In this document: positions 12,643 through 25,990 of the stretch, piece by piece
Numbering within the stretch: the stretch's first letter is position 1
How the letters are laid out: each line of letters begins with the position of its first letter
NCBI GenBank assembly: GCA_016789785.1
Contig: JAEUQE010000113.1
Location: forward strand, 1-27,329
DNA length: 27,329 nucleotides
Source of the DNA: Bryobacterales bacterium
GTDB lineage: Bacteria > Acidobacteriota > Terriglobia > Bryobacterales > Bryobacteraceae
Direction of reading: 5' to 3'
The notes under the pieces: generated by a model
Databases searched by the model: none
What the model was told of the DNA's origin: nothing
The model's input: only the letters and a program-made list of their open reading frames with translations
Program-made: the position numbers and the translations under genes

Positions 12643-12760
12643 AGGGCGCCTCCGTAGTCCTCTCGGATGGTCCTTGAGGACGCAAAGTTCTACTCCCTTA
12701 CTTCGACCGTTAGGCTCTGTGTGTTTACCTTAGAGCTGCGTTGGAAATCCCTCAGATGGA
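12643..12760 (-). other. Leader/intergenic region upstream of the SBBP gene with possible RNA structure
   Basis: On the minus strand two nested pairings are possible. An outer helix joins 12737-12741 to 12680-12684 (ACGCA with TGCGT). An inner hairpin has GCTCT/AGAGC arms (12732-12736 and 12714-12718) around a 13-nt loop. A third small palindrome lies at 12671-12680. It does not match any riboswitch class I can recall. The pairs are short and could be chance. Confidence 0.25.
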
Positions 12761-13933: not shown

Positions 13934-13978
13934 GCGGTGAAACTGCCATTATCGACCGCGTGGGTGGTGCGGTGCTGC

Positions 13979-13984
13979 TATACT
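13979..13984 (+). promoter_or_regulatory. -10 box of tRNA-Leu
   Basis: TATACT lies 14 nt before the first base of the tRNA, so transcription would start about 7 nt upstream of it. No convincing -35 is seen at 16-18 nt spacing. Confidence 0.45.
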
Positions 13985-13998
13985 ACGAAAAGCCTCGG

Positions 13999-14087
13999 GC
14001 TGGAGTGGCGGAACTGGCAGACGCACGGGACTCAAAATCCCGCGCCTTTCACTAGGCATGTGGGTTCGACCCCCACCTCCAGCACCA
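13999..14087 (+). tRNA. tRNA-Leu (anticodon CAA)
   Basis: A full class II cloverleaf can be drawn. The acceptor GCTGGAG (13999-14005) pairs with CTCCAGC (14077-14083), then comes discriminator A and CCA (14085-14087). The anticodon stem CGGGA/TCCCG has the loop CTCAAAA, giving anticodon CAA. There is a long variable arm (GCCT...AGGC) typical of tRNA-Leu. The T arm GTGGG/CCCAC has the TTCGACC loop. The 3' end is the integration site of the element to the right. The last two bases of the CCA lie outside the att core, on the element side. Confidence 0.96.
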
Positions 14088-15225
14088 GCTTAGACGTTGA
14101 AACTAAAGGATTTATTTCAACGTTTTCACCGTGTGCCGTCCGCGTGCCGTGGACTCGCCTCAGCAGCGTAACAGTCCTACTCTGATAGTCGGGAGACCAT
14201 TTCGAGTAGTGTTTCAGGATGACCTGCGGGGAGTCGCCGAGGATGTTTGCAGCATCCTCGGCGGTTCCGCCGCTCGCTAGGATCTCAGTGGCGAGTGTGT
14301 GGCGGAATCGATGGCTGGAAGCCCGCTCAACGCCAGACTCGCGGAAAACCGCTTGCAGGGTCCGCACCACAGTCTTGATGTGGCCGAATCGCGAACCCTT
14401 GCCCGTCCAAAAGAAGTAGGGGCAATTCTCGTCTGCACCCTGCGGCGAAGGCAACGCCTCCAGTGCAAACTGTACCTCGGGATAGTCGGACAACGGAAGC
14501 CATAGTTGCTTTCCGTTCTTCATCGCCGTGATGAAGATTTCGCCGCTCTTCACCCGGTCACGTTCCAGGGTGGCAACGTCCGACACTCTCAAGCCGAAGT
14601 GCCGCATCAGTAGAATGATTGCACGCGCGCGCCGCCGCTCATAGTCACTCTTCCCGAAGGTGTCACACGCCGCAAGGATGCTCGCGTACTCCTCTGCGGT
14701 GTACGGCGCCCTCTCCCGCGGCTTGGGGTTCGGGGGCATCTTCATCTCGCGCGCAATGTTCTCATCGCACCACTTGCGCTTGCGGCAGAACTCGAAGAAC
14801 TGCCGTAGCAGTTGCAGTTCCTTCGACCAAGACAGCTTGTTGATTTTCCGGCTGGTGCGGTAATCATCAAGGTGCTCAAGTTGCATCCGATCGATGGTGT
14901 ATATCTCGCGACGCTCGCAAAACTCTCTCAGTCGCGCCATGATGCGCCGGTACTTCGTCAGGGTGGATTCCTCCACCTCACGCTGCGCAATGAAGGCCTC
15001 CGCGGCCGCCGCCACACTCTTGCGCGCCTTGCCGGCCGCGGCATCCTCTTCGATCTCCCCAAGGCGCCGTGTCGCACGCGCCCAGTTGACCGTGCTCATG
15101 CTCTGCCGAATGCGGCGCGCGCCAACCATCCCATCACAATGAATCGGGCAATCGCACTTCGTGAAGTGCCGCCCCTTCGCCTTGTGCGGGCAGGTGTCGA
15201 GATGTCGGCGGTAGAGCGTTAACAC
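14032..15225 (-). CDS. int: Tyrosine-family integrase whose 3' end runs into tRNA-Leu
   Basis: 397-residue site-specific recombinase that should integrate the element at tRNA-Leu. The N-terminus has a Cys/His cluster (C12, H14, C24, C26, H29, C30), possibly a zinc-binding arm domain. A SAM-like core-binding domain lies at about 70-160. The catalytic domain has R213 (GLRVSD), a beta-hairpin lysine (K236 or K239 in MKNGKQ), H305-x-x-R308 and the nucleophile Tyr340 in LKHYSKW. The usual second histidine of LGH is D331 here, in LGDSPQ. The start is GTG at 15225, directly after the stop of the HTH gene, with GGAGG 9 nt upstream inside that gene. The last residues from V381 on are encoded by the att core and, beyond it, by tRNA antisense. 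Confidence 0.93.
   Translation of the reverse strand: MLTLYRRHLDTCPHKAKGRHFTKCDCPIHCDGMVGARRIRQSMSTVNWARATRRLGEIEEDAAAGKARKSVAAAAEAFIAQREVEESTLTKYRRIMARLREFCERREIYTIDRMQLEHLDDYRTSRKINKLSWSKELQLLRQFFEFCRKRKWCDENIAREMKMPPNPKPRERAPYTAEEYASILAACDTFGKSDYERRRARAIILLMRHFGLRVSDVATLERDRVKSGEIFITAMKNGKQLWLPLSDYPEVQFALEALPSPQGADENCPYFFWTGKGSRFGHIKTVVRTLQAVFRESGVERASSHRFRHTLATEILASGGTAEDAANILGDSPQVILKHYSKWSPDYQSRTVTLLRRVHGTRTAHGENVEINPLVSTSKLVLEVGVEPTCLVKGAGF
14065..14085 (+). repeat. attL core (in tRNA-Leu 3' end)
   Basis: Covers the T-loop, the T-stem 3' arm, the acceptor 3' arm, the discriminator and the first base of CCA. It is identical over 21 bp to 25970-25990. The flanking bases differ on both sides (G before and C after here; T and T at the right copy). 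Confidence 0.92.
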
Positions 15226-15438
15226 TTAACTGCGCCTCCGGAAGTGCCGTGCGTAGACTTGACGTGCAACAGACTCGGGGATGCGAGGATGGTCCTTCCC
15301 ACCTTGTCCCGTACGCAGAACGCATTCGTCTTCGAACATGCGATGAATCGTATCCTCGCTCAATCCCCAAATTTCCGCAAGTGTGCGGGGGCTGAAGTGC
15401 CGCTCGAACATGGGTTCTGAACTAATCGCGTCCTTCAC
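15226..15438 (-). CDS. Small HTH protein, Xis/AlpA-like
   Basis: 70-residue DNA-binding protein with a MerR/excisionase-type helix-turn-helix. FSPRTLAEIWGLSEDTIHRMFE (positions 15-36) supplies the helices and a basic RIPES-x-V-x-RQVY segment follows. Its place immediately before the integrase, with its TAA abutting the integrase GTG, suggests a directionality factor (Xis) or an AlpA-like activator, as found in PICIs and P4-type satellites. The start is GTG at 15438, with a G-rich stretch about 5-10 nt upstream. ATG at residue 10 is a possible shorter start. The role is inferred from position and fold only. Confidence 0.75.
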   Translation of the reverse strand: MKDAISSEPMFERHFSPRTLAEIWGLSEDTIHRMFEDECVLRTGQGGKDHPRIPESVARQVYARHFRRRS

Positions 15439-15520
15439 TTGACGTCCCCCGGCCCCGAGCCAGGCGCCATGACGGTTTCTTCCGGGTGTCTAATCCTACG
15501 CGATTTGTCCATTCTTCGGC

Positions 15521-16000
15521 TCAGATGTCCAGTTCCTCGACTATCTCAATGTCCAGTTCCGCGGCTACCGCTTGAATCAAACTATCAGGATAGGCAGGAT
15601 GGCCCAGACAATCCGCTTCCGCTTTTGACATGCAGTCAAAATCATCGTACACCTCGAAATCGTCGGCTTGCTCGTTGTACTTATCAAACGTAACCACAAC
15701 AATACGATTAGCTCTTGTGATGGCAACTGAGTAGGGACTCGTGCCATAAATACCCTGGGTCCCATCAAATGAATGCTCCTCGCCTCCTTCTGCACTACCG
15801 ATGATCCAACGGCCATCGAAAGCCTTAGTCGTGTTTTCTGAAACCTTCACCGTGATGCGCCCGGTTTGTGCCCGCTTGATGTCAAGTTCTCTCTTGAGAC
15901 ACCGGATAAACGTCGCAGACATCGAGTCTCCGATCTCCCGCTTTGCTGCTTCGAATAGCTCCATGTCTTGGTCAGGGATGTAGATGTTTGTTCTTGGCAT
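15521..16000 (-). CDS. Ribbon-helix-helix protein, EXLDI type
   Basis: 159 residues. The N-terminal 40 residues (MPRTNIYIP, then two helices ending near KREL) look like a CopG/ribbon-helix-helix DNA-binding domain. The remaining 115 residues are acidic and beta-rich and end in EELDI, the signature end of the EXLDI protein family as I recall it (TIGR04342). The ATG at 16000 sits 6 nt after a -10 hexamer of a consensus promoter with an inverted repeat, so the protein probably represses its own gene. A TTG at 16036 would overlap the -35 box and is rejected. It lies between the head genes and the xis/int pair. A function beyond DNA binding is not visible. Confidence 0.75.
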   Translation of the reverse strand: MPRTNIYIPDQDMELFEAAKREIGDSMSATFIRCLKRELDIKRAQTGRITVKVSENTTKAFDGRWIIGSAEGGEEHSFDGTQGIYGTSPYSVAITRANRIVVVTFDKYNEQADDFEVYDDFDCMSKAEADCLGHPAYPDSLIQAVAAELDIEIVEELDI

Positions 16001-16006
16001 GTGTGA

Positions 16007-16036
16007 AGTATATACACACTCAATGTGTATTGTCAA
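16007..16036 (-). promoter_or_regulatory. Consensus promoter and palindromic operator of the EXLDI gene
   Basis: On the minus strand the -35 is a perfect TTGACA (16031-16036). The -10 is TATACT (16007-16012, 18-nt spacer) or the overlapping TATATA (16009-16014, 16-nt spacer). Between them lies a perfect inverted repeat with 7-nt arms ATACACA/TGTGTAT (16012-16018 and 16024-16030). The ATG begins 7 nt after TATACT, so the transcript would be leaderless. Ribbon-helix-helix proteins commonly bind such short palindromes. Confidence 0.75.
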
Positions 16037-16072
16037 GGCGAATTACGGCTCACCGTCCAAAATTCTCCGGCC

Positions 16073-16411
16073 CTACTCCTTCAACACGAGCCTGATGGTA
16101 CGCTCGGCTGATTGCGCGATAGGCACACTCGCTTTGCCTGAGCGGATCCTCATAAACCGGATGCCCTCCAACTCCAAGCGAACCACCGGATAGAACTTGC
16201 CCGCGTCCGGCTCGATCCGCCAGGGGTCGCGGGTGATGTTGTCCACCTCATGCCAGTTGCTGCCATCGTAGGATGCTTGAAAGGTCATCTCAGCCGTGTC
16301 CCACACTGCGGGCATGTAGAGCCCTACTATGGGCAAGCCCGCTAGGTCGACGGCGCCGCTGAGGGACTGCCCCGCGGCGATCGTCGCCGTGCGAATCGAT
16401 TGCGCGGGCAT
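16073..16411 (-). CDS. Beta-rich virion-type protein, function unknown
   Basis: 112 residues, last gene of the head cluster. Its ATG overlaps the stop of the cement gene (TAATG). The sequence alternates hydrophobic strands with segments such as TFQASYDGSNW and RFMRIRSGKA, reminiscent of small beta-sandwich phage proteins found after capsid genes. It could be a second decoration or head-fibre protein, or a connector. A longer frame upstream to 16555 lies wholly within the cement gene and is rejected. Confidence 0.6.
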   Translation of the reverse strand: MPAQSIRTATIAAGQSLSGAVDLAGLPIVGLYMPAVWDTAEMTFQASYDGSNWHEVDNITRDPWRIEPDAGKFYPVVRLELEGIRFMRIRSGKASVPIAQSAERTIRLVLKE

Positions 16412-16761
16412 TACGCCGGCCCCGTCTGTCCGGTGAGTGCCAACCGGCAATCGACGGTCGTAACGCCGTTGCCGGCCGCTTTGACGGCGATCCCCACCAA
16501 GGGCTTGCTGCCGGTGCCTGCGGTCTTCGTCAGTTTGCTCTGGCCCGAGTCCCAATAAAGCTTGTCCCCGACGGCGATCACGTCGCTCGTGACCTTGGGC
16601 AAGGTGAACACGCCTACCGTGTCGATCGCCACTTCCTCGCCGCTCGATACGCTCGATGCGGCCACTCCAATCAGAGATCCCGAGACAACAAGCTGGCCGC
16701 TGGTGATCGAGCCGCCCGCTGTGACTGTGATCGTATCTCCGCGCTGAACATAGTTAGTCAT
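16411..16761 (-). CDS. DUF2190-type capsid cement (decoration) protein
   Basis: 116 residues resembling the DUF2190/phage cement family: NYVQRGDTITVTA at the start, SGQLVVSGSLIGVA, EEVAIDTVGVFTLPK and GDKLYWD in the middle. These small beta-barrel proteins sit on the outside of HK97-fold capsids and stabilise them. Its start is 4 nt from the gpW-like gene stop and its stop overlaps the next ATG, so it is part of the head operon. Having a cement protein beside the major capsid protein supports an autonomous head. Confidence 0.82.
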   Translation of the reverse strand: MTNYVQRGDTITVTAGGSITSGQLVVSGSLIGVAASSVSSGEEVAIDTVGVFTLPKVTSDVIAVGDKLYWDSGQSKLTKTAGTGSKPLVGIAVKAAGNGVTTVDCRLALTGQTGPA

Positions 16762-16765
16762 TTTG

Positions 16766-16975
16766 TCAAATTCCTCTCGAAGTAACTACAGTGAATACTC
16801 GCGAGCCGCTCTCGCCCGAGAGCCTCGCAATCTCCGCATCGATCAGCGCAAGCTGCGTACGCATTTCGTCGGCGCGCTTGAAAGTCACGCCCGCCCCGTC
16901 GTGGCGCACGTCCTCGATCCCACTGAGTTTCCTCAGTAAGTCATCGCGCTGGGTCTGAAGTTCGGCGATCGTCAT
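16766..16975 (-). CDS. gpW-like head-completion / head-tail joining protein
   Basis: 69 residues, close to the 68 of lambda gpW. The pattern is alike: a first helix (ELQTQRDDLLRKL), a short hairpin around VRHDGAGVTFK, a second helix (MRTQLALIDAEIARL) and a flexible tail. gpW stabilises DNA in the filled head and prepares the neck for tail attachment. In lambda-like phages this gene lies between terL and portal; here it follows the capsid gene. Gaps to its neighbours are 3-4 nt. If correct, this is the only gene pointing toward the tail side of the virion. Confidence 0.7.
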   Translation of the reverse strand: MTIAELQTQRDDLLRKLSGIEDVRHDGAGVTFKRADEMRTQLALIDAEIARLSGESGSRVFTVVTSRGI

Positions 16976-16978
16976 GGC

Positions 16979-18706
16979 TTACCCAGGGTTCTTCCATGCC
17001 CCACGGTGATCGACGGCACCAGCGCCGAGATGCCACACCACCCGAACGTCCACCCCCAACGTTTCGAACGCCTGCCGCGTCTCGGCCTGCGGCCCCTGAT
17101 AGCCCTCAAGCTCTGCGTATTCGAAGACGGGAGTAGTGGCCGGATCAGCGAAGAGATACCACGCCGTCGCTTGGCCCTTGGCGTCGAGTCGAGGCTCAAC
17201 GATCGGCGTCAGGTTGCGAGACGAAACGACAGCATCGCTCGGCTGCTGCGGGTACAACGTGGCCAGCAGCTTATCGACCGTCGCCTCGAGGGCGGCAGGA
17301 AAGACGATGAATCGCGGCGCCGCGTCGATGGGGTTGCCCGATAAGTCGGTCTGCAAGCGCATGGCCTTCTTGCCGTCCGCTATTGTTGTCTCACCAGGCG
17401 CAGCGCCGGAACCTGCGAGGTTCGCGTGACTTGCGTGAAACACCGCGACGTTATCAGCAAGCTTTGGATTGCTGATGATCGTGTCAACCAAGAACCCGTT
17501 GAACCATTGCCGCGCGCCCATGGTCATCTTACCGGCGAGATCCGAGAGCGCCGACACGTCATCGTTGATCAGCACCTTGAATGTGATTCCCCAGGCCTTC
17601 GCATAGCTCTCAAGCTTGTAACTGGAAAGCTCTTTGTCCGTGATTTTTCCCCACGTAATCTCGCCCTTTTCCGCAACCTTCGCGAGACCGCCGCCATCGC
17701 TCATCTCGAGAATGTGGCGTGCGCGGAAATCGCTCATTGTCGCGCGCCGGAAAATCTGCTGCGTTGGCGTGGGCGCCGTGGAGAGCATCAGCAGATTCTT
17801 GTTGCTCCACTCTTGGAGGATCGCTGTGAAGTCGGATGTCGTGTGCAGCGCGCGCGTGATCAATTCCGCCGGCGTGCCCAGAGTGGAGAGCCCGCGGGTC
17901 TGCAGAACGTGGCGTGCCAGGTCCCACGTGCGAAACGTGGCGAACTCGCGGCCGGCATCCGCAGTGTGCCGCGGATTGGTGCGCGCCATGAGTCCGTCAG
18001 CCAGGCGAGCGGTGAGCCCGTCGGCTGCGTCGCGTGTGACCGTCGCTGGTGCGCGGTGATCGATGTGGGGGATTGCGCGCGCCGCCTCGGTGATGATGGC
18101 AGTGCGCGCTTCATCAATTGGTGTGTTGCGCTGGATGAGACCCTCGGCGAAGGCCGCTGGCACACCCACCGCCGCGGCAATGCCGCGGATCTGTTCGTTC
18201 AACTCCATAGCTGGTGTACTCCTTACCTTGGCGCCGGCGTCCGCGCCGAGCGCTACGAATGAAAGCTCTACTGGCCGCCACCGTGTTGCGGTGATGGTGC
18301 GCGCGCCGCTGGCGTCCTTCTCCACTTGTTTCTGCTGAACCGTGTAGCCGATCGAGACCGATCGCACGATGCCTGCCTCGACATTGAGCATGAGCGCCTC
18401 AGCCGCATCGCCGAAACCGAAACGCACTGTCGCGACGCCGCGTTTCCCGTCAACGCTCGCCGCGTCTACGGTCCCAAGGACGCTACTCACATCGAAACGG
18501 TCATGGCTGTTCAGGACCGGACCGCCGATGAGATCTTGAAGATCGACAGCCTCCGGCGCCATACTCAGCCGCTCCATGTAACGGCCCTCGAAGTCGTATC
18601 GCGGCACTGCCGCGCCGGTGGAGAAGATGACATCGACCGTGCGTTTCTCCGCGTTGAAGGTCGCAGGCTCGAACGTCGCCGCGCGTGTGATGATCGTATC
18701 CGTCAT
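16979..18706 (-). CDS. Prohead protease / major capsid protein fusion
   Basis: 575 residues in one chain. Residues 1-160 form an HK97-type (S78/U35) prohead protease with LNSHDR (His68) and VRSVSIGY (Ser118 as probable nucleophile) followed by the ELSFVALGAD strand. A helical linker (about 170-260) may act as an internal scaffold or delta domain. The rest, from about 265, is an HK97-fold capsid protein (FTAILQEWSNKNLL, SSYKLESYAKAWGI, PRFIVFPAALE). Such fusions are known in tailed phages and are expected to cleave themselves during assembly. The start overlaps the stop of the preceding gene (ATGA). No separate scaffold gene exists in the element. Confidence 0.88.
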   Translation of the reverse strand: MTDTIITRAATFEPATFNAEKRTVDVIFSTGAAVPRYDFEGRYMERLSMAPEAVDLQDLIGGPVLNSHDRFDVSSVLGTVDAASVDGKRGVATVRFGFGDAAEALMLNVEAGIVRSVSIGYTVQQKQVEKDASGARTITATRWRPVELSFVALGADAGAKVRSTPAMELNEQIRGIAAAVGVPAAFAEGLIQRNTPIDEARTAIITEAARAIPHIDHRAPATVTRDAADGLTARLADGLMARTNPRHTADAGREFATFRTWDLARHVLQTRGLSTLGTPAELITRALHTTSDFTAILQEWSNKNLLMLSTAPTPTQQIFRRATMSDFRARHILEMSDGGGLAKVAEKGEITWGKITDKELSSYKLESYAKAWGITFKVLINDDVSALSDLAGKMTMGARQWFNGFLVDTIISNPKLADNVAVFHASHANLAGSGAAPGETTIADGKKAMRLQTDLSGNPIDAAPRFIVFPAALEATVDKLLATLYPQQPSDAVVSSRNLTPIVEPRLDAKGQATAWYLFADPATTPVFEYAELEGYQGPQAETRQAFETLGVDVRVVWHLGAGAVDHRGAWKNPG

Positions 18707-18954
18707 GACTTACGCAACCCCTCTCTGAGTTGAATCAAGAACCCGTCGCGGTGATCGGTCACTAAGACCATAAGTGGACCCTCCGGTTTCACCTCGCCCG
18801 CAATAACTTTGCGAATACTCAGTACGCGCGAGTGTCGATCCACTTTGTTGAGTATTTCGCGCGTTGTGCAGTGATCGAACTCGGCGAGTTGTGCTGGAAA
18901 GTAAACCATAACTTCCTTACCTGTCACCCTTCGGATCTGCTCCAACAAACTCAT
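18703..18954 (-). CDS. Small protein between portal and capsid genes, unknown
   Basis: 83 residues, ATGA overlaps with both neighbours, so it is surely translated with the head operon. The sequence begins MSLLEQIRRVTGKEVMVYF and has a strand-rich end (PLMVLVTDHRDGFLIQL). I do not recognise a family. Its position suggests a role in head assembly or control, but nothing in the sequence proves it. Confidence 0.65.
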   Translation of the reverse strand: MSLLEQIRRVTGKEVMVYFPAQLAEFDHCTTREILNKVDRHSRVLSIRKVIAGEVKPEGPLMVLVTDHRDGFLIQLREGLRKS

Positions 18955-20324
18955 TTCGCATCAGCCGCCTCCGTCTGTGCTTGCCCCTGCTGCGAGACCC
19001 TGCGCGGATCGCTGTCGAGTACCAGCCCAAGCCGATCGGCGCGCGCGTTGTCTGATGCAATCTCGGCGTCGATGTCCTCGACGTCCCACCCCGTGCGCGA
19101 AACAACCTCGGCGCGCGATAGGAACCCCGCCCGTACCTGCGCGACCAGGTTCCTCGTCTCGGCCGCCGGGTCGAGCATCTCTATTTGGGGCGCGATCCAC
19201 CGGACGCTGGAGTAATCCTCGATAGTACCCGGCAACATGCCGCTCGCGATCGCGAGTCGTAACCACAGATCGAACACCGGACGACAGAACTGGAAAACGA
19301 GTATGTGGTGCTGCAAGTACTCGATCTGCCGCCTGAACTCAATCAGCGAATGCCGTCCACTCGCGAAAGTAACCTGACTAACATCGCCGCTCAGTAACTC
19401 GTATGGCAGACTAAGTGCGCTCGCGATCGACCGTAAGTAAGCACGTACTGACGGCTCAAAACTCGCCCCCACGTCTGGCAGGCTGGGGAACTCGGTCTCC
19501 TCGCCCGGCTGTAAGCGGATCATTGCGCCAGGCTCAAGCGCAGGCACGCCCGCCGTGCTGACAACCGGGTTGCTCCCGTCCGGCGTCCGCACGAATCCGG
19601 TGAACAGCGCGCCCACCTTTTGGCGGACAAGCGTCGCCTCCATAAACTCCTGAAGCTCACGCAGTGGTAACAGCGCCGGTGCGAGCCAAGATACGCCCCG
19701 CTCGAAGCCCGGCTGCAACGGCTCGAAGAGGTGAATCACCTGCTCGGCCGGAACGCGGACGCTCGCCATGTGGGGCGACTCTGCCGGATGCTTTGCGAAA
19801 AGCCAGTAGGCCACGCGCCGCCCGGCATCGTCGTATTCGATTCCGCCGAGCGTGCGCCCATCGACACGCGAGGTGTCGAGGAACTCAGGGCCGAGAACCT
19901 GTAGCTGTAGCGGAATCGCTTGCTGCGGATCGAGCACGAAGCGGATGAGCACCTCGCCTGAGATGACCATCTCGCGCAGCGTGGCCGCCTGCACGCCGTA
20001 GAAGTCGCGGCGCCCAGCAAAATCGCATCGATCAATCCACGCGTTCCATGCGCGCGTGAACTCCTGACGGCCTGACGGTAGCCGAAGCTGGGGCTTGATC
20101 CCGCCGCCAACTGCTGATGTCGCGAGCACGCTCACGGCGCGCCGGGCCCAGGGGTTGTTTCGGTGCGCATCGCGCGCCCGGTTGCGAACCATTGCCGGCG
20201 TCAGTGATGTGCTGAAGTCGGTGCTCGGTGCGGTCCACTTCGCGAGCCGGTTCCCCGTGCCGGCCGCGTCCCACGTGGGGGCGTTGCGCGTGAGGAACGA
20301 AAGCAGTCTGCTAATGCTAATCAT
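18951..20324 (-). CDS. Portal protein, lambda gpB family
   Basis: 457 residues forming the dodecameric DNA channel at the head vertex. Family features in order: an N-terminal segment with LTPAMVRNRARDAHRNNPWARRAV (residues about 41-64, in which the NN-x-WA motif is typical), the GGGIKPQ strand, the wing region with VLGPEFLD, the VRVPAEQVIHLFEP strand, and the stem helices around EFMEATLVRQKVGALFTGF. ASALSLPYELLSGD and SLIEFRRQIEY are also strongly family-like. Its start overlaps the MerR-like gene by 8 nt and its stop overlaps the 83-aa gene. Length is a little shorter than lambda gpB (533). Confidence 0.93.
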   Translation of the reverse strand: MISISRLLSFLTRNAPTWDAAGTGNRLAKWTAPSTDFSTSLTPAMVRNRARDAHRNNPWARRAVSVLATSAVGGGIKPQLRLPSGRQEFTRAWNAWIDRCDFAGRRDFYGVQAATLREMVISGEVLIRFVLDPQQAIPLQLQVLGPEFLDTSRVDGRTLGGIEYDDAGRRVAYWLFAKHPAESPHMASVRVPAEQVIHLFEPLQPGFERGVSWLAPALLPLRELQEFMEATLVRQKVGALFTGFVRTPDGSNPVVSTAGVPALEPGAMIRLQPGEETEFPSLPDVGASFEPSVRAYLRSIASALSLPYELLSGDVSQVTFASGRHSLIEFRRQIEYLQHHILVFQFCRPVFDLWLRLAIASGMLPGTIEDYSSVRWIAPQIEMLDPAAETRNLVAQVRAGFLSRAEVVSRTGWDVEDIDAEIASDNARADRLGLVLDSDPRRVSQQGQAQTEAADAK

Positions 20325-20916
20325 CCACCTTCACCCCTGCTTCGGCGAAAAACCTGACGAACTTCGGCATGAGCCCCCGCAGAAACAACCTCACGTCGAA
20401 CGTGAGCGTGACGCAACTTTCGATCAGATCACTGGAGTCTGGAAAGCGACCGAAGCTCCTGAAATGTGCCCAGACCTCATCATTCATGTGAATTTCGCAG
20501 GTCGGGTTATACGGGGCGCGGATATCGAAGTCACGGCACTGAAAGCCATTGAGGATCAAATCGAAATCGCGGTTCGTCTCAAAGGCAGCTTTAAGGCATT
20601 CCGGCCACGCGCCAGCTTGTGCCAGTCGATCAATGGCCAGCAGTTTCAACACGTTGCGCGGTGAATAAAGCACATGGTGCCCGCTCCCTGGCGTCTCCGC
20701 AACTTCCGTCAGGTCCCACAATCCGCGACGCGAGTAACTCTCGATTCTTCCTTTGGGCAATCCCGTGAACGCCAACACGTCGGAGAACGACAGCACAGGG
20801 TAATCAATCCAGTGCCACCTAAGCGGCTCCTCGTCTATGGCGTTGACCGGAAGAATATAGCGCTCACCGGTCAGTTCCTGCCAACGAGTTGCGATACTCT
20901 TCGCCTTTCGTGCCAT
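20317..20916 (-). CDS. MerR-like DNA-binding protein inside the head gene cluster
   Basis: 199 residues. Residues about 40-115 look like a MerR-type winged helix: VLSFSDVLAFTGLPKGRIESYSRRGL, then a wing (GSGHHVLYSP) and a helix starting RNVLKLLAIDRL. The C-terminal 80 residues (FDLILNGFQCRDFDI..., VTLTFDVRLFLRGL) may be a ligand or dimer domain; I do not recognise it. It is the first gene of the portal-capsid transcription unit and has its own promoter with a palindrome just after terL. It may sense a signal, perhaps from a helper, and control head production. A MerR-like regulator between terL and portal is unusual. Confidence 0.7.
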   Translation of the reverse strand: MARKAKSIATRWQELTGERYILPVNAIDEEPLRWHWIDYPVLSFSDVLAFTGLPKGRIESYSRRGLWDLTEVAETPGSGHHVLYSPRNVLKLLAIDRLAQAGAWPECLKAAFETNRDFDLILNGFQCRDFDIRAPYNPTCEIHMNDEVWAHFRSFGRFPDSSDLIESCVTLTFDVRLFLRGLMPKFVRFFAEAGVKVDD

Positions 20917-20927
20917 CTTGGATCTAG

Positions 20928-20955
20928 ATTAAATCTATGTGAATAGATTTGTCAA
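20928..20955 (-). promoter_or_regulatory. Promoter with palindromic operator driving the head genes
   Basis: On the minus strand the -35 TTGACA (20950-20955) and -10 TTTAAT (20928-20933) have a 16-nt spacer. The -35 begins 2 nt after the terL stop codon. The spacer holds a perfect inverted repeat with 7-nt arms AATCTAT/ATAGATT (20932-20938 and 20943-20949). The ATG of the MerR-like gene is 11 nt past the -10, so the leader would be about 4-5 nt with no Shine-Dalgarno. An operator between -35 and -10 with a MerR-like gene downstream suggests autoregulation. Confidence 0.7.
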
Positions 20956-20957
20956 GT

Positions 20958-22769
20958 CTACCCCGAAACAAACCTACTCCGGCTCGTGCGGTAGGCCTCC
21001 ACCACTACAGCGCCCGTTTGCCGCATGGCCTCGATCCGCGCCGATTCAACATCGGGAGTTATGCCGTGCGCGGCCAGCGCATACACGCCAGCCAGGGCGT
21101 AGTTGGCGCAGTCCCAGGCCTCCGCCCTCCGGCCCTTCCGGCGCTCCCACACGCGCACCGGACGTCCGCGGCGATACTCCGTGCGCGGGAATTCCGATAG
21201 GAGTTGCTCCATGTAGTCGAGCCCGACGGTTGCAGGGAAGTGCATGCGCCCCGGCCCCTCAGTGATGCGCAGACGATGGGCGATCGTTTGACGCAGCGCG
21301 TCTACGCCGATCACCCACACGCGCCCTTTGGGTGCCTTCGATTCCCGCCGCGGCCACACGGGACGGGTACCCGTAGCTGCCTTGATGGCGAATACACGGC
21401 GGCCGCGCCGCTCGTCACAGAATCGCGTCACCATCCCAGTGAACGCGCCGCTGTCGATGCACACGGCGTGCAGTGGCATCAGGCCGACGATGGGATGTTG
21501 CCACCGCTCCGAGAGGAACGCATCGAGCGCCGCCCACAGGGCCGGAGTTGACGGATCGCCAGGTATGACGCGATGGGTCATGAGCCAGCTCTCCTCGCCG
21601 GCGCCCCACCCCCAGACGGACACCTCCACTCGATCGGCCTGCACGTCGACGCCCGCCGTCAGCAGCGCGACGCGATCGGGCAGCACCGGCCCGTAGGCCT
21701 CACGTCTCGCGAGCAGTTCGGCTTCTTTCACCCCGCCTGCAGCCTGATCGTCCCACCACTCGGCCAGCGATGTATTAATGAACGAGCGCAGCCGCTCCGG
21801 AGATCCTTGTGCGCGGATCCAGTCCTCGGCCATCTCGCCCCACGTGCGCCAGGGGCTATAGAGTTCGCTCAAGTGAAAGCCCGCTGCAGCCCGCCCCGGT
21901 TGCGTGGCCACCCACCGGCCACGGGCGAGCATCCACAGTTTGCGGTGATGCGGGATAAGCTTCTCGCAGTGCGAGCACCGGTACTGCGCTTCCCCAGGGT
22001 TTGCATCTTCGTACTCAACACGCCGCCAAGTCAGCACCTGGTAGTTCTCGCAGTGCGGGCAGGGCACGTGATAGTAGCGTTGGTCGCTCTCAGCCCATGC
22101 TACTTCGATCCGCGACGCGCCCTTGATGGTGGGCGATGAGGTCATGACGATCTTCCGATTCCAGAACGATCGGGTTCGTGCGCGCGCCAGGTCCACGGGG
22201 TCACCTTCGCTACCGGCAGACGCTTCGAAGCGGTCCACTTCGTCCAGAATCAGATAGCGGATCGGCCTTGATGCCAATCCCGCCGGTGAGTTCGATGTTG
22301 CTATGCTCACTTGCCCGCCGATAAACGCCTTTGTGTAAATCGTGCTGCTGGCGTCACGTGCCCGCGATTCGGCCACCTTGCCCCTCAGGATCGGCACGTC
22401 GCGGAGCATCGGAGCAAGGCGTTCCTTGCTGAAGGCCTCCGCCATGATCAGCGTTGGCTGCACCACCAGCGCGGGCCCCGGGTCCTCTGCCATCATGTGC
22501 GCCAGCATCGCCAGGGTGACACTGGTTTTCGACATCTGGCTTGCCCACACCAGCACCACGGTTTGATAGCCCGAGTGCGGCCCCATGCAGTCGAGTGGTT
22601 CTCGCTGATAGGCGAGCAGCGTGACCGGCCCCGGTTGCGCGCTGGACTCGCTGGAGAGGCGGTAGTGCTCCTCGGCCCATTCGCTCAGGGATACGCGGCG
22701 CGCGGGCAGAATCGCCGTTGCCGCCGCTTCGAGCAGCTTACTCGATACCGAGACGTCGTAGCTCATCAT
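20958..22769 (-). CDS. Terminase large subunit, lambda gpA family
   Basis: 603-residue packaging motor and nuclease. The ATPase part has a variant P-loop WASQMSKTS (75-83) and Walker B YLILDEVD (172-179). Two CxxC pairs (CPHC and CSHC, about residues 235-275) are typical of gpA-type terminases. The nuclease domain has acidic strands GVDVQADRVE and CIDSG and a late EAWDCANYAL motif. GpA-type enzymes usually cut at cos sites. The start (ATGATG at 22769/22766) overlaps terS by 32 nt. Length is near lambda gpA (641). This is strong evidence that the element packages its own DNA. Confidence 0.94.
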   Translation of the reverse strand: MMSYDVSVSSKLLEAAATAILPARRVSLSEWAEEHYRLSSESSAQPGPVTLLAYQREPLDCMGPHSGYQTVVLVWASQMSKTSVTLAMLAHMMAEDPGPALVVQPTLIMAEAFSKERLAPMLRDVPILRGKVAESRARDASSTIYTKAFIGGQVSIATSNSPAGLASRPIRYLILDEVDRFEASAGSEGDPVDLARARTRSFWNRKIVMTSSPTIKGASRIEVAWAESDQRYYHVPCPHCENYQVLTWRRVEYEDANPGEAQYRCSHCEKLIPHHRKLWMLARGRWVATQPGRAAAGFHLSELYSPWRTWGEMAEDWIRAQGSPERLRSFINTSLAEWWDDQAAGGVKEAELLARREAYGPVLPDRVALLTAGVDVQADRVEVSVWGWGAGEESWLMTHRVIPGDPSTPALWAALDAFLSERWQHPIVGLMPLHAVCIDSGAFTGMVTRFCDERRGRRVFAIKAATGTRPVWPRRESKAPKGRVWVIGVDALRQTIAHRLRITEGPGRMHFPATVGLDYMEQLLSEFPRTEYRRGRPVRVWERRKGRRAEAWDCANYALAGVYALAAHGITPDVESARIEAMRQTGAVVVEAYRTSRSRFVSG

Positions 22770-23061
22770 GAGCCCCTCTCAGCGCGTTCTCGCACTCCGT
22801 GCGCAGGATCTCCCCGCCCTCTGCCGGGTTGCTCGCCGCCATCACCTGCCGCGCCGCCTTATCGGGGATGCGGAGCACTGCCGCCTTGACCGCCGAGAAC
22901 GCCTTTGTGACGGTGTCGGCTGCCGCCTCGATCGTGATCAGCTTCCCCTCGCGCTCGGCCACTTCCAGTTCCCGCAGCCGTGCCAGTGCCACTTCCTTGC
23001 GGCGCCGGGCCTCGTTTTGCGAGACCATTGCCGCAGTATCAGCCTTACTTATACGTGGCAT
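22738..23061 (-). CDS. Terminase small subunit
   Basis: 107 residues, charged and helical, directly upstream of and overlapping terL, as small terminase subunits are. The central helix RRRKEVALARLRELEVAERE and the downstream segment VLRIPDKAARQVMA are common in Nu1/terS-like proteins of gpA-type systems. No obvious N-terminal winged helix is seen, so it is not a classic lambda Nu1. It would recognise the packaging site, which I would look for just upstream. Confidence 0.75.
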   Translation of the reverse strand: MPRISKADTAAMVSQNEARRRKEVALARLRELEVAEREGKLITIEAAADTVTKAFSAVKAAVLRIPDKAARQVMAASNPAEGGEILRTECENALRGAHDELRRLGIE

Positions 23062-23098
23062 CCATTACCCCAGGTTTTGCTTATGCTGACTAGCGAAA

Positions 23099-23347
23099 TC
23101 ATGCGATGATCCTACCCGCGAGGCGAGCGCGCGAAAAGATCGTTTGACGTCCGGCCCGTCGGGCCTCCGCGCTATCCGCGCCCGTCGCGCGTCGGGCGAG
23201 CGATCCCACCTGGACAGGCGCCGTCGTAGCGAGGCAGCGCGGCGTGGCCTTCCGAGACTCCCCGCCGTGCGCCAGGATGCTGCGCAGGGAACAAGATTGC
23301 TCCGATCGAGCCGCGAGCCACCGCACCAGGTCTGACGCTCCCCTCAT
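23099..23347 (-). CDS. Possible small basic protein (82 aa), uncertain
   Basis: The start ATG overlaps the stop of the 54-aa gene upstream (ATGA), which favours translation. The composition is arginine/alanine/serine-rich with no recognisable fold, and the DNA holds two GC hairpins: GGCCC/GGGCC at 23153-23165 and CGCCCG/CGGGCG at 23179-23198. The stretch may instead be noncoding and hold the packaging (cos) site that is expected next to terS. I give the protein about a one-in-three chance. Confidence 0.3.
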   Translation of the reverse strand: MRGASDLVRWLAARSEQSCSLRSILAHGGESRKATPRCLATTAPVQVGSLARRATGADSAEARRAGRQTIFSRARLAGRIIA

Positions 23348-23508
23348 GCCGCGGCCCTATTGCGGCGAGCATCACGCCGTTGGATCTCAGCGATCATCTC
23401 CGCGTGATCATCGGTGGTGAATGCACTTCGATGAAATCTTGCGAAGTGCCGAAGCGCCCAAGTTGGCACGAGGTGCAGTGGAACGCCTTCATATTTGCCG
23501 TAAGTCAT
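23344..23508 (-). CDS. 54-aa protein resembling DUF3820 small proteins
   Basis: A short frame that reads MTYGKYEGVPLHLVPT, then a helix, then an acidic TTDDHAEMIAE and a basic tail RRDARRNRAAA. The start resembles DUF3820-type proteins, which begin with F/Y-GK-Y/H-x-G-x-P-L and a following P-x-x-Y/W-L. An in-frame ATG 9 nt further upstream (23517) is an alternative start. The stop overlaps the next ATG as ATGA. It lies between the iteron array and terS. Function unknown. Confidence 0.6.
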   Translation of the reverse strand: MTYGKYEGVPLHLVPTWALRHFARFHRSAFTTDDHAEMIAEIQRRDARRNRAAA

Positions 23509-23639
23509 TGTTCCCATGAAGCTTAGCCCCGAAGAAAAATCTTAGTTACTGATCCTTTCGCGTGATCGTGGGGCAGCCCCATTCCCTCGCCCTCGGGTGA
23601 GTCGTAGGGTACCCCCTCCCTATCCCTATACATACTGGT

Positions 23640-23789
23640 GTGAACAGTGTGAACGAGTGAACGGAAGAGGATATGTAGCTTTGGAATCAGACGATTACAG
23701 ACACCACTACCGTTCACGCACCGTTCACGCACACGTCTGCCGTTCACGCCGTTCACACCGTTCACGTTCATACCGTTCACGCCGTTCAC
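23640..23789. repeat. Bipartite iteron array, probable replication origin
   Basis: Seven copies of CCGTTCAC on the + strand start at 23710, 23721, 23740, 23749, 23758, 23773 and 23782; several are spaced exactly 9 bp. Three near copies in the opposite orientation (GTGAAC followed by A or G) start at 23640, 23649 and 23657. A 45-bp spacer richer in A/T (23665-23709) separates the two groups. The last copy overlaps the helicase stop codon. Iterons on both sides of an AT-richer stretch at the 3' end of a rep gene is the design of SaPI origins. It is not CRISPR: the units are 8 bp without unique spacers of even length. Confidence 0.7.
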
Positions 23790-24790
23790 GTATCTCGCCC
23801 AAGGCAGTACCTCCCGTCCGAATTGCGGTTCAGTTGCCCCGCGCTGTACATCTTCTGGATCAGGCGCCGGACGGTGTTCTCATTGCGGCGAAGTCGCCGC
23901 GCGATGTCGGCGGGCTTGAGTGGCGCTTCCTCCCGCAACAGGGTGATGATGTCCTCGCGGGATTCGCTCAGTTCCACCTGTTCACCTTCTCCCGTTTTGT
24001 GCCAGCCGAAGGGTTCGTCGTTCTCGAACGTAAGCCCGATGGTGCGGTCCTCGAACTCGCGGCCCGTAACCTGGAGAGTGGCGCCGTCAGGCTTCTTCGC
24101 GAGGGTCCATATCGCGTCGCACGCCGCAGTCATACCGGACGTTCCGGCGACAGCATCCACGTGGTAATCCGCGGCCGCCTTACGGGAGTGCGCTACCAGC
24201 AGAATCGCCGTCTTGTGCTTCTCAGCGATGGCCCGTAGCCGGTCCACTTCGGCATAGTCACCTCGCATCGCATCCTTGCTCTTCCGATCCCGGACCAACG
24301 CGAGGAAGGTGTCGATGATGACCAACGTTGACGGGTTCGCCACCAGGTACTCATCGAGCAGTTCGGCGCCGCCGCCCAGTAGCGGCATGATCCGATAAAT
24401 GAACCCGATGTTGGCCATGTGCGGTTGATTGCCGGCATCGGGAACCAACCGATGCAATCGGTGATGGGTGCGGGAGTCAGGCTCTTCGAGCGCCAGGTAG
24501 GTAACGCGTCCTTGCTTCGTTGAATGCTGCCCGAACAGTGGAGCGCCGAACGCAACGGCGATGCCGATCTGAAGGGTGAGCCAACTCTTACCAACCTTCG
24601 GCCGCCCCTGCACGATGGTGAGTCCGTCGGTGAGGATTCCGTCCACGATGAATTGCGTCTCTGGATACTCGCGCCGAAAGATGCTGAGCCCATCGATCGC
24701 TTCAAGCTTCGGCTTCGCCGGCCGCTTCGCCTCAGCCCGCAATATCTTCAGATTCTGTTCTACCAGCGCGGTCGCGGTGCTAGGCTGCAT
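23786..24790 (-). CDS. RepA-like RecA-fold replicative helicase with C-terminal winged helix
   Basis: 334 residues from the ATG at 24790. Walker A is GRPKVGKSWL (62-71), Walker B STLVIIDTF (154-162) and a later strand AILLVAHSRK (195-204), as in hexameric RSF1010 RepA / AAA_25 ATPases. The last 55 residues form a winged helix (PLKPADIARRLRRNENTVRRL) that could bind the iterons lying at its own 3' end. I prefer 24790 because GGGGGT lies just upstream. ATG 24805 and TTG 24820 are in frame but lack an SD. It overlaps the primase-like gene by 11 nt. It probably starts replication of the excised element. Confidence 0.85.
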   Translation of the reverse strand: MQPSTATALVEQNLKILRAEAKRPAKPKLEAIDGLSIFRREYPETQFIVDGILTDGLTIVQGRPKVGKSWLTLQIGIAVAFGAPLFGQHSTKQGRVTYLALEEPDSRTHHRLHRLVPDAGNQPHMANIGFIYRIMPLLGGGAELLDEYLVANPSTLVIIDTFLALVRDRKSKDAMRGDYAEVDRLRAIAEKHKTAILLVAHSRKAAADYHVDAVAGTSGMTAACDAIWTLAKKPDGATLQVTGREFEDRTIGLTFENDEPFGWHKTGEGEQVELSESREDIITLLREEAPLKPADIARRLRRNENTVRRLIQKMYSAGQLNRNSDGRYCLGRDT

Positions 24791-25475
24791 GCTGCACCCC
24801 CGCATCGGTAGAGATCGCAAGGCAACCGACGAGAAAAGCCGCTACCTCATCGGCGTTGCGCTCATGCTGAACCTGATCGTCGATCAGCAGTGCAACTTCC
24901 CGTGGTGACTCCTGTGCCGCCTGCTCGAAGCGCCGCGCCAGGTTCGCGCCGGCAAGTTGCTCCGTGGCGTACAGTTCGCGTGAGGCCGTGGTCCAAACAC
25001 ACCAGCGCGCCCAGCGGTCTTCAGGATCATCCGCGGGTTCATCCAGTGCGAACAGCGCCCCAGCCTTGATCCGCTCCAATTCGCGGATCCGGCCCGCTCT
25101 CCACAGCCGGGCATACTCCGCGGCCCGCCGATCCTCGCCGGTGGGTGGAGTGTAGGCGCCATCGCTTGGAAACGTCTCCGTGAGGAATCGGAGCGCTTGC
25201 TGCTTGCCGCCCAGTGCGGCAATCGCGAGTTCGAGACATCGCCCGCCGTCGCCGGTCACATGGTCATGCCATACGTTGTGAGTGACGTCGATGCTCACAT
25301 TGAGCCCGTGGCCATCGCGCCAGAACGCCTTCGTCCGCGCTCTCCCGTTACGGATCGTGAGGGACGGCCCTCCGAGCGCCCGCCATACCTCGGTGATGTG
25401 GAGTGCCTGCCAATCGATTCGGGAGGGCAGGGGCCGCCCTGCCGGCCGGCCCCCAGTCTGCACCGAGCCACTCAT
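24780..25475 (-). CDS. Primase-N-domain-like protein without catalytic core
   Basis: 231 residues. The N-terminal 100 residues resemble the DNA-binding head of phage primases (GRARTKAFWRDGHGLNVSI, VWHDHVTGDGGRCLEL), where a toprim or prim-pol domain normally follows. The cysteines of a CHC2 zinc ribbon are missing. The rest is helical and charged (ERIKAGALFALDEPADD, WTTASRELYATE) with no visible toprim or polymerase motif. It may load or assist the helicase encoded next, with priming done by the host. It overlaps both neighbours (ATGA at 25472; 11 nt at its 3' end). Confidence 0.65.
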   Translation of the reverse strand: MSGSVQTGGRPAGRPLPSRIDWQALHITEVWRALGGPSLTIRNGRARTKAFWRDGHGLNVSIDVTHNVWHDHVTGDGGRCLELAIAALGGKQQALRFLTETFPSDGAYTPPTGEDRRAAEYARLWRAGRIRELERIKAGALFALDEPADDPEDRWARWCVWTTASRELYATEQLAGANLARRFEQAAQESPREVALLIDDQVQHERNADEVAAFLVGCLAISTDAGVQHAA

Positions 25476-25756
25476 CGCGTTGCCTCGTCGAGCAGCTTCC
25501 CGAGCTCGTGATGCTCGGCACTATCCGCGGCGTCGCAATAGAACTCGATTGCCGCCTCGTCAAGGAATGCCCATTTCTGCAGGCGCTGATCGATCCGCGC
25601 GTCGCCATGCGCCAAAAGGAACTGGCGTACCTGATCCCGGAACTTTGCGCGCCGCTTGCGCTCAGCGGCGAGCCGCCGGCGGAACGAAGCGACTGTCTTG
25701 ATAGCCTTGCGGGAAGAACCTTTAGGCGGTAAGCTTGATGGTGTAAGCTTTTTCAC
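25472..25756 (-). CDS. Small basic protein, first gene of the replication operon
   Basis: 94 residues with a GTG start; GAAGGG lies 8 nt upstream. The N-terminal half is very basic (KGSSRKAIKTVASFRRRLAAERKRRAKF), the C-terminal half acidic and helical. Its ATGA overlap with the primase-like gene shows it is part of the operon. No family is recognised. A role in nucleic acid binding at replication is possible but unproven. Confidence 0.6.
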   Translation of the reverse strand: MKKLTPSSLPPKGSSRKAIKTVASFRRRLAAERKRRAKFRDQVRQFLLAHGDARIDQRLQKWAFLDEAAIEFYCDAADSAEHHELGKLLDEATR

Positions 25757-25774
25757 GAGAGAAACCCTTCAACG

Positions 25775-25802
25775 GACCGGCCCCGCGCCGGTCTTTCTTT
25801 TC
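25775..25802 (+). terminator. Terminator-like hairpin facing attR
   Basis: 7-bp stem GACCGGC/GCCGGTC (25775-25781 and 25787-25793) with a 5-nt loop, followed by TTTCTTTTC on the + strand. It has the form of an intrinsic terminator for rightward transcription. On the minus strand it would sit in the 5' leader of the 94-aa gene without a U-tract. No rightward gene is seen before it. Confidence 0.5.
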
Positions 25803-25969
25803 TGGATTTCCCAGCGAACGCGGAAACATTTTCACCCTGAATTGTTCGTGTGCCAATGGCGTGCCATAAGCTTGCGGATTAGGCGGGTTGAGCGGTTCCA
25901 GCGCCAAAGAGGTGCCATGTAGAATCAGTAAGTTGCCTGTTTTCAACACGGCTTCTTCCTCTTCGCTTT
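25803..25969. other. Right end of the element, no supported gene
   Basis: About 170 nt between the hairpin and attR. On the minus strand TTGAAA (25941-25946) is a possible -35 with only a weak -10 (TCTACA) 17 nt on. A 75-codon frame exists but overlaps the 94-aa start and looks random. Codons 25946-25969 (minus strand) would form the integrase C-terminus in the circular form. Confidence 0.4.
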
Positions 25970-25990
25970 TTCGACCCCCACCTCCAGCAC
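25970..25990 (+). repeat. attR core (orphan tRNA-Leu 3' fragment)
   Basis: Exact 21-bp copy of 14065-14085 without the rest of a tRNA. After it the chromosome reads TTCGC rather than CA, so the pre-integration tRNA gene seems not to have encoded CCA. Confidence 0.92.

Follow-up and report, generated by a model that had tools for sequence, protein, structure and literature searches.

Capsid-forming phage satellites have so far been described mainly from enterobacterial, pasteurellal, and Gram-positive groups, according to PMC10803314. Capsid-forming phage-inducible chromosomal islands (cf-PICIs), such as EcCIEDL933 and EcCI2, encode their own major capsid protein, maturation protease, portal, small and large terminase subunits (TerS and TerL), and head-tail connector, use the HK97 capsid fold, and have no tail genes of their own. 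In PMC10690885, an HNH endonuclease is also listed in the cf-PICI packaging module, and two Streptomyces phage satellites, MulchRoom and MiniFlayer, are described as encoding capsid and packaging genes. This work describes an element of 11,905 bp (∼11.9 kb) integrated at a tRNA-Leu(CAA) gene in a Bryobacterales bacterium (assembly GCA_016789785.1, contig JAEUQE010000113.1; the whole 27,329-nucleotide stretch that was analyzed is referred to here as the window). We consider it very likely that this element is a capsid-forming phage satellite, integrated and intact, and that it belongs to a lineage of its own. A survey of the literature on phage satellites and cf-PICIs, including reports on Acidobacteriota, Alphaproteobacteria, and Rhodobacter, returned no description of this lineage.

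The element is bounded by exact 21-bp direct repeats, attL (14065 to 14085) and attR (25970 to 25990), which are spaced 11,905 bp apart. The left repeat sits in the 3′ end of the tRNA-Leu (CAA) gene (13999 to 14087, plus strand; ARAGORN). All element genes are carried by the minus strand, to which the gene coordinates given below refer. In order of transcription, two small open reading frames (ORFs) are followed by genes for a primase-like protein, an AAA_25 helicase with iterons, a 57-aa ORF, TerS, TerL, and a MerR-like protein, and then by those for the portal, an 83-aa ORF, a protease-capsid fusion, a gpW-like protein, a cement protein, a 112-aa ORF, a ribbon-helix-helix (RHH)-like protein, a helix-turn-helix (HTH) protein, and a tyrosine integrase (14032 to 15225; PF00589, E value of 1.4e-15; PHROG 1, 2.5e-35). 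The 3′ end of the integrase gene reads across the attachment core into the tRNA. The GC content is 61.0% within the element, 61.0% in the left flank, and 58.0% in the right flank. An earlier interpretation of the window, made from its letters without database searches (the sequence-only reading), had reported the intact repeats around an 11.9-kb element and the integrase, and both hold. It had also proposed an acidobacterial host, which the Bryobacteraceae-like flank bears out: the top named match of the flanking YchF, at 87% identity, is a protein named Bryobacteraceae.

Packaging is predicted to be of the lambda type. TerS (22738 to 23061; PHROG 57, 8e-14) and a TerL of the lambda gpA type (20958 to 22769; ATPase PF05876, 5.1e-80; nuclease PF20454, 3.8e-83) are encoded ahead of a lambda-family portal (18951 to 20324; PF05136, 5.2e-94). 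The terL and portal genes lie 633 bp apart, and the space between them holds the gene for the MerR-like DNA-binding protein (20317 to 20916; PF13411, 0.0082, below the cutoff), directly upstream of the portal gene. Protease and capsid are fused in a single 575-aa ORF (16979 to 18706; PF25209, 7.5e-39; PF04586, 2e-4; PHROG 4523 “major head and protease protein,” 1.8e-159), the model of which (predicted local distance difference test [pLDDT] score of 82.5) has the HK97 fold. The gpW-like head-tail adaptor gene (16766 to 16975; PHROG 2545 “head-tail adaptor Ad1,” 2.4e-6) lies 3′ of the capsid gene, followed by that for a cement or head decoration protein (DUF2190; 16411 to 16761; PF09956, 1.4e-26; PHROG 122, 3.6e-32). 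On the replication side, a RepA-like AAA_25 helicase with a winged helix (23786 to 24820; PF13481, 1.1e-23) is accompanied by GTGAACGGC/T (GTGAAC) iterons at the 3′ end of its gene (∼23706 to 23789), a probable replication origin. The gene at 24780 to 25475 encodes what is predicted to be the primase-like N-terminal half of a split primase-helicase, because its homologues in loci L039 and L045 are fused primase-helicases. The helicase, iterons, TerS, TerL, portal, protease-capsid fusion, gpW-like protein, and cement protein had been named in the sequence-only reading, and all were matched here by Pfam or PHROGs, apart from the iterons, which were located in the sequence. The primase-like assignment of the gene at 24780 to 25475 is a correction to that reading. 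Its statement that tail, baseplate, holin, and lysin genes are absent also stands, in that no such family was matched by the element ORFs scanned with Pfam and PHROGs.

The element thus has all five of the cf-PICI head and packaging proteins listed above, a candidate connector in its gpW-like Ad1 protein, a modeled capsid of the same fold, and, like its relatives, no recognized tail genes. An integrase and an AlpA-type regulator are typical of PICIs. The integrase is present in the window, whereas the HTH gene beside it (15226 to 15438) has no significant Pfam or PHROG match; the “Xis/AlpA” label given to it earlier is supported by its position and by an excisionase-like counterpart in a related element, L002 (PHROG 66, 4.3e-6). 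Unlike the cf-PICI packaging module, the window gave no HNH match among the ORFs scanned with Pfam; HNH occurs once among 122 pooled ORFs of 21 relatives, and one is annotated in L210. The capsid, which is fused to the protease and assigned to the Phage_capsid_4 family, falls outside the sequence family of EcCI2 (PDB entry 9gyi), the sole cf-PICI capsid compared, with 13 to 16% identity across structurally aligned residues. A capsid profile searched against PDB sequences at an E value of ≤1 gave four matches, one to 9jod (a major capsid protein), two to chains with the Mu GpT domain, and one attributable to chance, but did not match 9gyi, the presence of which in the searched PDB set was not checked. 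In structural comparisons, encapsulins, phage capsids, P4, SaPI1, and the cf-PICI EcCI2 score closely together against the capsid model, in a list topped by encapsulins, and the fold therefore cannot choose among HK97-fold capsids. TerL gave no PDB match at an E value of ≤1, and a scan for defense genes found nothing beyond weak CARF-type matches on the RepA winged helix. By analogy, the element would work in the manner of a cf-PICI. The sequence-only reading had called it cf-PICI-like; this holds for a tail-less satellite with its own head, whereas the missing HNH match and a capsid outside the EcCI2 family do not support membership in the published cf-PICIs. On present sequences, it probably represents a distinct capsid-forming satellite lineage that combines lambda-type packaging with a protease-capsid fusion, unless it coincides with one of the three radiations of published cf-PICIs. 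MulchRoom and MiniFlayer resemble it by description, being satellites with capsid and packaging genes, but according to PMC10690885 some key genes for replication are missing from them, they carry direct terminal repeats, and their helpers are virulent; MiniFlayer also has its own short tail fibers.

The same head module is known from tailed phages: RcKemmy (Rhodobacter), PBb001 (Bordetella), 1/44 (Shewanella), 1.055.O (Vibrio), and yong2 (Microcystis) likewise have a gpA-type TerL, a lambda-type portal, a protease-capsid fusion (31 to 35% identical to that of the window across the 20 best records), and a DUF2190-type cement protein. Unlike the window element, these phages are 41 to 50 kb long with annotated tail genes, which lie 3′ of the cement gene, where the window has the integrase and the tRNA. 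They also differ in the place of gpW. In all 10 annotated phage records, a gene of 67 to 71 codons lies between terL and the portal gene, and in six it is named as gpW, adaptor, or connector; the window element and its relatives instead have their gpW-like gene 3′ of the capsid gene, and their terL and portal genes are separated.

Relatives were gathered using a profile built from the nearest homologues of the window capsid, which yielded the best 80 of 401 confirmed matches in genome contigs and the best 80 of 493 in IMG/VR. Across 186 loci with a capsid match, gpW lies after the capsid gene in 98 (satellite type), before the portal gene in 38 (phage type), in both places in none, and in neither in 50. 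Where both genes were found, the distance between terL and the portal gene is 718 to 5,394 bp for 57 of the 64 satellite-type loci and 136 to 388 bp for 34 of the 35 phage-type loci, the phage-type exception being L081 (1,119 bp); in the other seven satellite-type loci (L083, L088, L089, L096, L105, L115, and L131), the modules are permuted, with terL after the head genes. The MerR-like protein falls in the largest cluster of ORFs just upstream of the portal gene (20 of 64 suitably sized ORFs), and the remainder form clusters of 7, 5, 4, 3, or 2 or are singletons, so that the position is common to more loci than the MerR-like sequence. The AlphaFold2 model of the window protein is of fair quality (pLDDT, 78.9); its nearest PDB entry is the MerR-type regulator CvkR (E value of 3.4e-3), with others worse.

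Tail genes were sought with 70 tail-region proteins from nine phages and from L190, a prophage described below. A tail-region homologue was found in 1 of 98 satellite-type loci versus 28 of 38 phage-type loci, counts that include near-copies. Six of the 28 are mutual matches of reference phages, and once the eight reference loci are set aside, the proportion is 22 of 30. The lone satellite-type exception, L128, has a baseplate-protein match on the opposite strand. Among loci with at least 8 kb of sequence 3′ of the capsid gene, a tail homologue was present in 0 of 34 satellite-type versus 13 of 17 phage-type loci (7 of 9 phage-type loci without the reference phages).

Many of these relatives are anchored at tRNA genes. 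Of 62 loci scanned, 38 hold a tRNA or transfer-messenger RNA (tmRNA), and in 31 of these a second exact copy of at least 13 bp of the tRNA region was found (at least 40 bp in 17), although the shortest copies, of 13 to 14 bp (L012, L043, L053, L072, and L077), could be due to chance. Mapping of 28 repeat-bearing loci with phmmer found terL, portal, and capsid genes together in 21, portal and capsid genes in L044 and L075, and the capsid gene alone in L058, L067, L072, L076, and L189. The 23 elements with portal and capsid genes, together with the window element, measure 10,154 to 13,234 bp (mean, 11,698; standard deviation, 904; n = 24), and the five capsid-alone elements measure 7.5 to 11.9 kb. 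L119, an IMG/VR contig of the satellite kind, is circular at 11,371 bp. A family scan of the 122 pooled, otherwise unassigned ORFs of 21 relatives returned integrases, small terminases, primases, replication initiators, and regulators but no tail family among the 25 commonest of 101 PHROGs and 25 of 30 Pfam families; since these are the commonest families, a rare tail gene among the ORFs is still possible. The lineage is not peculiar to Acidobacteriota and is mostly found in Alphaproteobacteria: named hosts, available for 56 of the 98 satellite-type loci, comprise 54 Alphaproteobacteria, 1 member of the Pseudomonadota without a class, and 1 member of the Acidobacteriota. Members are carried by cultured Stappia, Paracoccus, Bradyrhizobium, and Histidinibacterium strains, among them Stappia indica SN13-18 (L037).

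A second set was drawn from the family to which Fuscovulum blasticum (G399) belongs; of its 295 sampled genomes, 93 had a capsid match and 30 a full-length, one-piece match. We selected 20 full-length, one-piece matches, 4 of which turned out to be known loci, and a further 20 consisting of 18 matches split in two and the partial matches L271 and L275. The former were labeled satellite type and the latter phage type ahead of mapping. Among the 16 new one-piece loci, gpW lies after the capsid gene in 15, an integrase within 4 kb in 13, a downstream tRNA in 12, and repeats in 7; tail-region matches occur in two, L237 (an 80-aa ORF resembling part of a tail tube) and L242 (an ORF resembling a head-tail attachment protein, with the PHROGs annotation “unknown”). 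Of the 20 phage-type loci, by comparison, 17 have gpW before the portal gene, 19 have tail-region matches, and 1 has an integrase nearby. Both types occur in Histidinibacterium lentulum B17 (G466), which harbors two loci of the satellite type and one of the phage type, the latter with tail matches.

A second complete element is L002. A capsid protein search (177 matches, 120 of them listed) and a genome scan pointed to this element, which lies on a 131-kb contig, JACQZR010000147.1, of an Acidobacteria metagenome-assembled genome (MAG; G001) and spans 12,171 bp between 52-nucleotide repeats (96% identical) at a tRNA-Gly gene. Its genes run in the order prim, repA with iterons, terS, terL, MerR-like, portal, a small ORF, capsid, gpW, cement, a 112-aa homologue, an excisionase-like HTH gene, and integrase. 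Gene order, size, the place of the iterons (a GTGAACAGG motif, from 4249 on), and the absence of recognized tail genes are as in the window, and seven common genes encode proteins of 44 to 76% identity (TerL, 76%; RepA, 64%; capsid, 62%; prim, 44%). By the method of Nei and Gojobori (NG86), nonsynonymous and synonymous divergences (dN/dS) are 0.20/1.51 for terL, 0.33/2.53 for capsid, 0.48/2.01 for portal, 0.30/1.67 for repA, and 0.61/1.71 for prim; dN is below dS in all seven genes, with dS near saturation. The insertion site and the HTH protein differ, and the integrase, which matches the broad PHROG 1 as that of the window does, gave no phmmer match to it at an E value of 1e-3. Because insertion site and integrase differ, the two elements, though of one kind, were inserted separately, and they have stayed under selection. 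The same MAG contains L190 (G001:C295:1-20000), a prophage of the same head superfamily with gpW in the phage position, a minor-tail match (7.1e-13), and a tape-measure match (4.7e-9) in PHROGs, although the tape-measure family PF10145 was not matched in this genome. L190 is a possible helper, or source of parts, for the L002 satellite, in a MAG of 11 Mb that may be mixed.

Phylogenies of the head proteins separate the two types. In the capsid tree (123 rows), one branch divides the satellite type (73 rows) from the phage type (33 rows; Shimodaira-Hasegawa approximate likelihood-ratio test [SH-aLRT], 99); six capsid-only elements (L058, L067, L072, L076, L078, and L208) fall on the satellite side. 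When all rows are counted, including 17 of the 50 gpW-unlabeled loci entered as “other,” the satellite label changes twice and the phage label six times. For this tree, 30 loci were dropped by hand (near-copies and close Rhodobacteraceae or viral relatives) and capsids shorter than 480 aa were left out, which leaves the tree without 26 of the 98 satellite-type loci and 5 of the 38 phage-type loci. The TerL and portal trees drew on labeled rows of the same set. In the portal tree, 69 and 33 rows are again split by one branch (SH-aLRT, 100), and FastTree agrees. A capsid tree enlarged with the second set (FastTree; 89 versus 52 rows) requires one change, with L271, which had been omitted from the first count, among the phages. 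Since portal and capsid both split on one branch, the trees argue for a single deep lineage of satellite heads, found mostly in Alphaproteobacteria and also in Acidobacteriota, as opposed to repeated decay. The comparison that the sequence-only reading had proposed for telling a satellite from a deleted prophage thus came out for a satellite: a tail-less family exists, with a second repeat in 31 of 38 tRNA-anchored loci, 24 elements of similar size were found with the window included, and the related element at a different tRNA and the one-branch split of portal and capsid both speak against a deletion. As a separate observation, L271 (G474:C1:143000-162900) has a phage-side capsid fusion beside an integrase and a tRNA, with no tail match, and may represent a capsid-carrying satellite that originated independently.

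Several points weigh against the satellite interpretation. The gpW-like protein is the sole adaptor recognized in the element, and a gpFII-like stopper was not recognized. Seven of the 38 tRNA-bearing loci are without a second copy, six of them at tRNA-Met (L006, L010, L014, L018, L021, and L030); the seventh is L191. In a sample of 396 Acidobacteriota genomes, 17 had any capsid match, and among twelve stretches from eleven of these, L002 was the only satellite-type locus (L190 and L191 are phage type), so the kind is rare or poorly sampled in this phylum. Proportions based on the 98 satellite-type and 38 phage-type loci are biased by the window-homologue profile, the selection of best rows, and near-copies. 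The TerL tree (FastTree; 47 versus 25 rows) shows five label changes, from which it follows that terminases, unlike portals and capsids, move between the two types. All trees were quick searches or FastTree runs with no bootstrap, are unrooted with long branches, and reflect sampling centered on satellite capsids as well as the rows dropped by hand. Finally, the window element is known from its sequence alone, from which we infer a helper, excision, induction, and particles.

Three other explanations were weighed. The element could be a complete micro-phage whose small ORFs (112-aa, 83-aa, and RHH-like) encode a very short, unrecognized tail or adsorption device. Several of its small ORFs do lack matches, and MiniFlayer, a satellite with its own short tail fibers, offers a precedent (PMC10690885). 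However, the candidate ORFs are not family-wide, with the 112-aa protein confined to the window and L002, the 83-aa protein to the window, L093, and L096, and the RHH-like protein having no relative, whereas the absence of a recognized tail is family-wide; we regard this explanation as improbable. Somewhat less probable again is a capsid module kept for other ends, such as blocking the assembly of invading phages or forming tail-less gene-transfer bodies. Some elements that fall with the satellites in the capsid tree are capsid-only, for example the Rhodovastum plasmid RHOAph (L208), which means that capsid genes can be kept alone. In the window, on the other hand, TerS, TerL, portal, and gpW are retained together under selection, which points to real DNA packaging, and lambda gpW is a head-tail joining protein. 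Least probable of all is a decaying prophage whose tail and lysis genes were deleted: its head module is homologous to those of tailed phages and the MAG of L002 also contains L190, a tailed prophage with a capsid from this superfamily, but the genes are intact with dN well below dS, the tail-less design recurs across many tRNA sites and hosts, gpW is not placed as in tailed phages, and TerL alone nests among phages, and the candidate was rejected for want of lesions and of any nesting of portal or capsid among tailed prophages of the same gene order.

A capsid-forming satellite of this kind would probably be mobilized with tails borrowed from other phages. Judging from its gene families, infection by a helper, or its induction, would lead to Int-mediated excision, and replication would start at the iterons through the primase and helicase of the element, with the MerR-like protein perhaps acting as a late-gene switch. 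The protease-capsid fusion would then form a small capsid, which the gpA-type terminase would fill with 11.9-kb DNA; gpW and cement would complete the head before helper tails join. Particles would be freed through lysis by the helper, and Int would place the DNA in a tRNA gene of the next cell. We further propose, at even odds of being right, that a single ancient own-head lineage arose once, before its spread between Acidobacteriota and Alphaproteobacteria and independently of the characterized cf-PICIs. Under this proposal, a founding move of gpW to a place 3′ of the capsid gene and the split of terL from the portal gene, with a MerR-type gene between them, let one conserved head take the tails of many unrelated phages, with free swapping of terminases, primases, and integrases.

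Of the remaining genes of the element, the HTH gene encodes a probable excisionase or regulator; relatives of its product adjoin the integrase in L080 (on the same contig as L205) and lie near the cement gene in L207. The RHH-like ORF (15521 to 16036; PF01402, 0.0025, below the cutoff) is an accessory gene of uncertain start with no relative among the fetched loci searched. The 112-aa protein 3′ of cement (16073 to 16411) has a counterpart in L002 (12303 to 12713), the sole sharer among the fetched loci; a longer ORF at this place (16073 to 16513) had no Pfam or PHROG match, and a search of 5.8 billion proteins (8 candidates scored) matched the protein to itself alone, the L002 homologue being additional. 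The 83-aa protein between portal and capsid (18703 to 18954) has relatives just in L093 and L096 among the fetched loci, and the 57-aa ORF (23344 to 23517) has weak Pfam and PHROG matches and no relative among them. The first two genes in order of transcription are ORF calls of 75 aa (25722 to 25949), a weak gene candidate, and 94 aa (25472 to 25756). They precede the primase-like gene and the helicase gene, the L002 homologues of which are 44% and 64% identical. Outside the element, the host flank encodes a 1,279-aa DUF7948/SBBP beta-propeller protein with an InlB-like repeat (8803 to 12642, minus strand), and homologues of a flanking epimerase occur in 26 of the 396 sampled Acidobacteriota genomes (best identity, 56%; G001:C124).

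Several other capsid-carrying loci were observed along the way. In the Acidobacteriota sample, L189 (8206 to 15754; genome G382) is a 7.5-kb tRNA-Thr element with a capsid-protease fusion, an integrase, and weakly TerS-like and replication-initiation genes; with portal and TerL not found, it appears as a capsid-only satellite. L198 (5799 to 15657; genome G152) has a weak capsid match between 49-bp repeats 9.8 kb apart at a tRNA-Thr gene and is possibly another capsid-carrying element. L208 (NZ_OW485609.1), the 10,690-bp Rhodovastum atsumiense plasmid RHOAph, is capsid-only and encodes ParA and a Phd/RelE toxin-antitoxin pair. L209 (NZ_CP148328.1), a circular E. coli sequence of 10,790 bp, carries genes for integrase, AlpA, an Icd-like protein, primase, a ClpP-capsid fusion, and DUF1441; terL and portal are not annotated, and it resembles an excised PICI with its own capsid. 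L072 (5126 to 16800; Flavimaribacter), tRNA-flanked with a 14-bp repeat, encodes a capsid fusion, a tape measure of 729 aa (PF10145, 2.7e-38), and a protein resembling a baseplate hub; terL and portal were not found, which makes this an odd, incomplete set of head and tail genes. L210 (NZ_CP102356.1, 41684 to 63471) is a satellite-type locus on a 326-kb Paracoccus plasmid, with a cargo slot between terL and portal that holds a cytosine methyltransferase, the HNH endonuclease mentioned above, and a second methyltransferase. In the Fuscovulum tRNA-Met locus L010, the post-cement gene (12717 to 14054) encodes a 445-aa protein unlike an integrase.

With these loci, a separate head lineage with predicted lambda-type packaging is now found in Acidobacteriota and in the family of Fuscovulum blasticum. 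The cultured Stappia, Paracoccus, Bradyrhizobium, and Histidinibacterium members make its biology a question that can be tested at the bench. If a single old lineage goes on building its own heads, satellites would be a lasting, virus-like way of life, beyond decayed phages, and the interface between gpW and the portal would make it possible to test directly how the same head is joined to tails of foreign origin.

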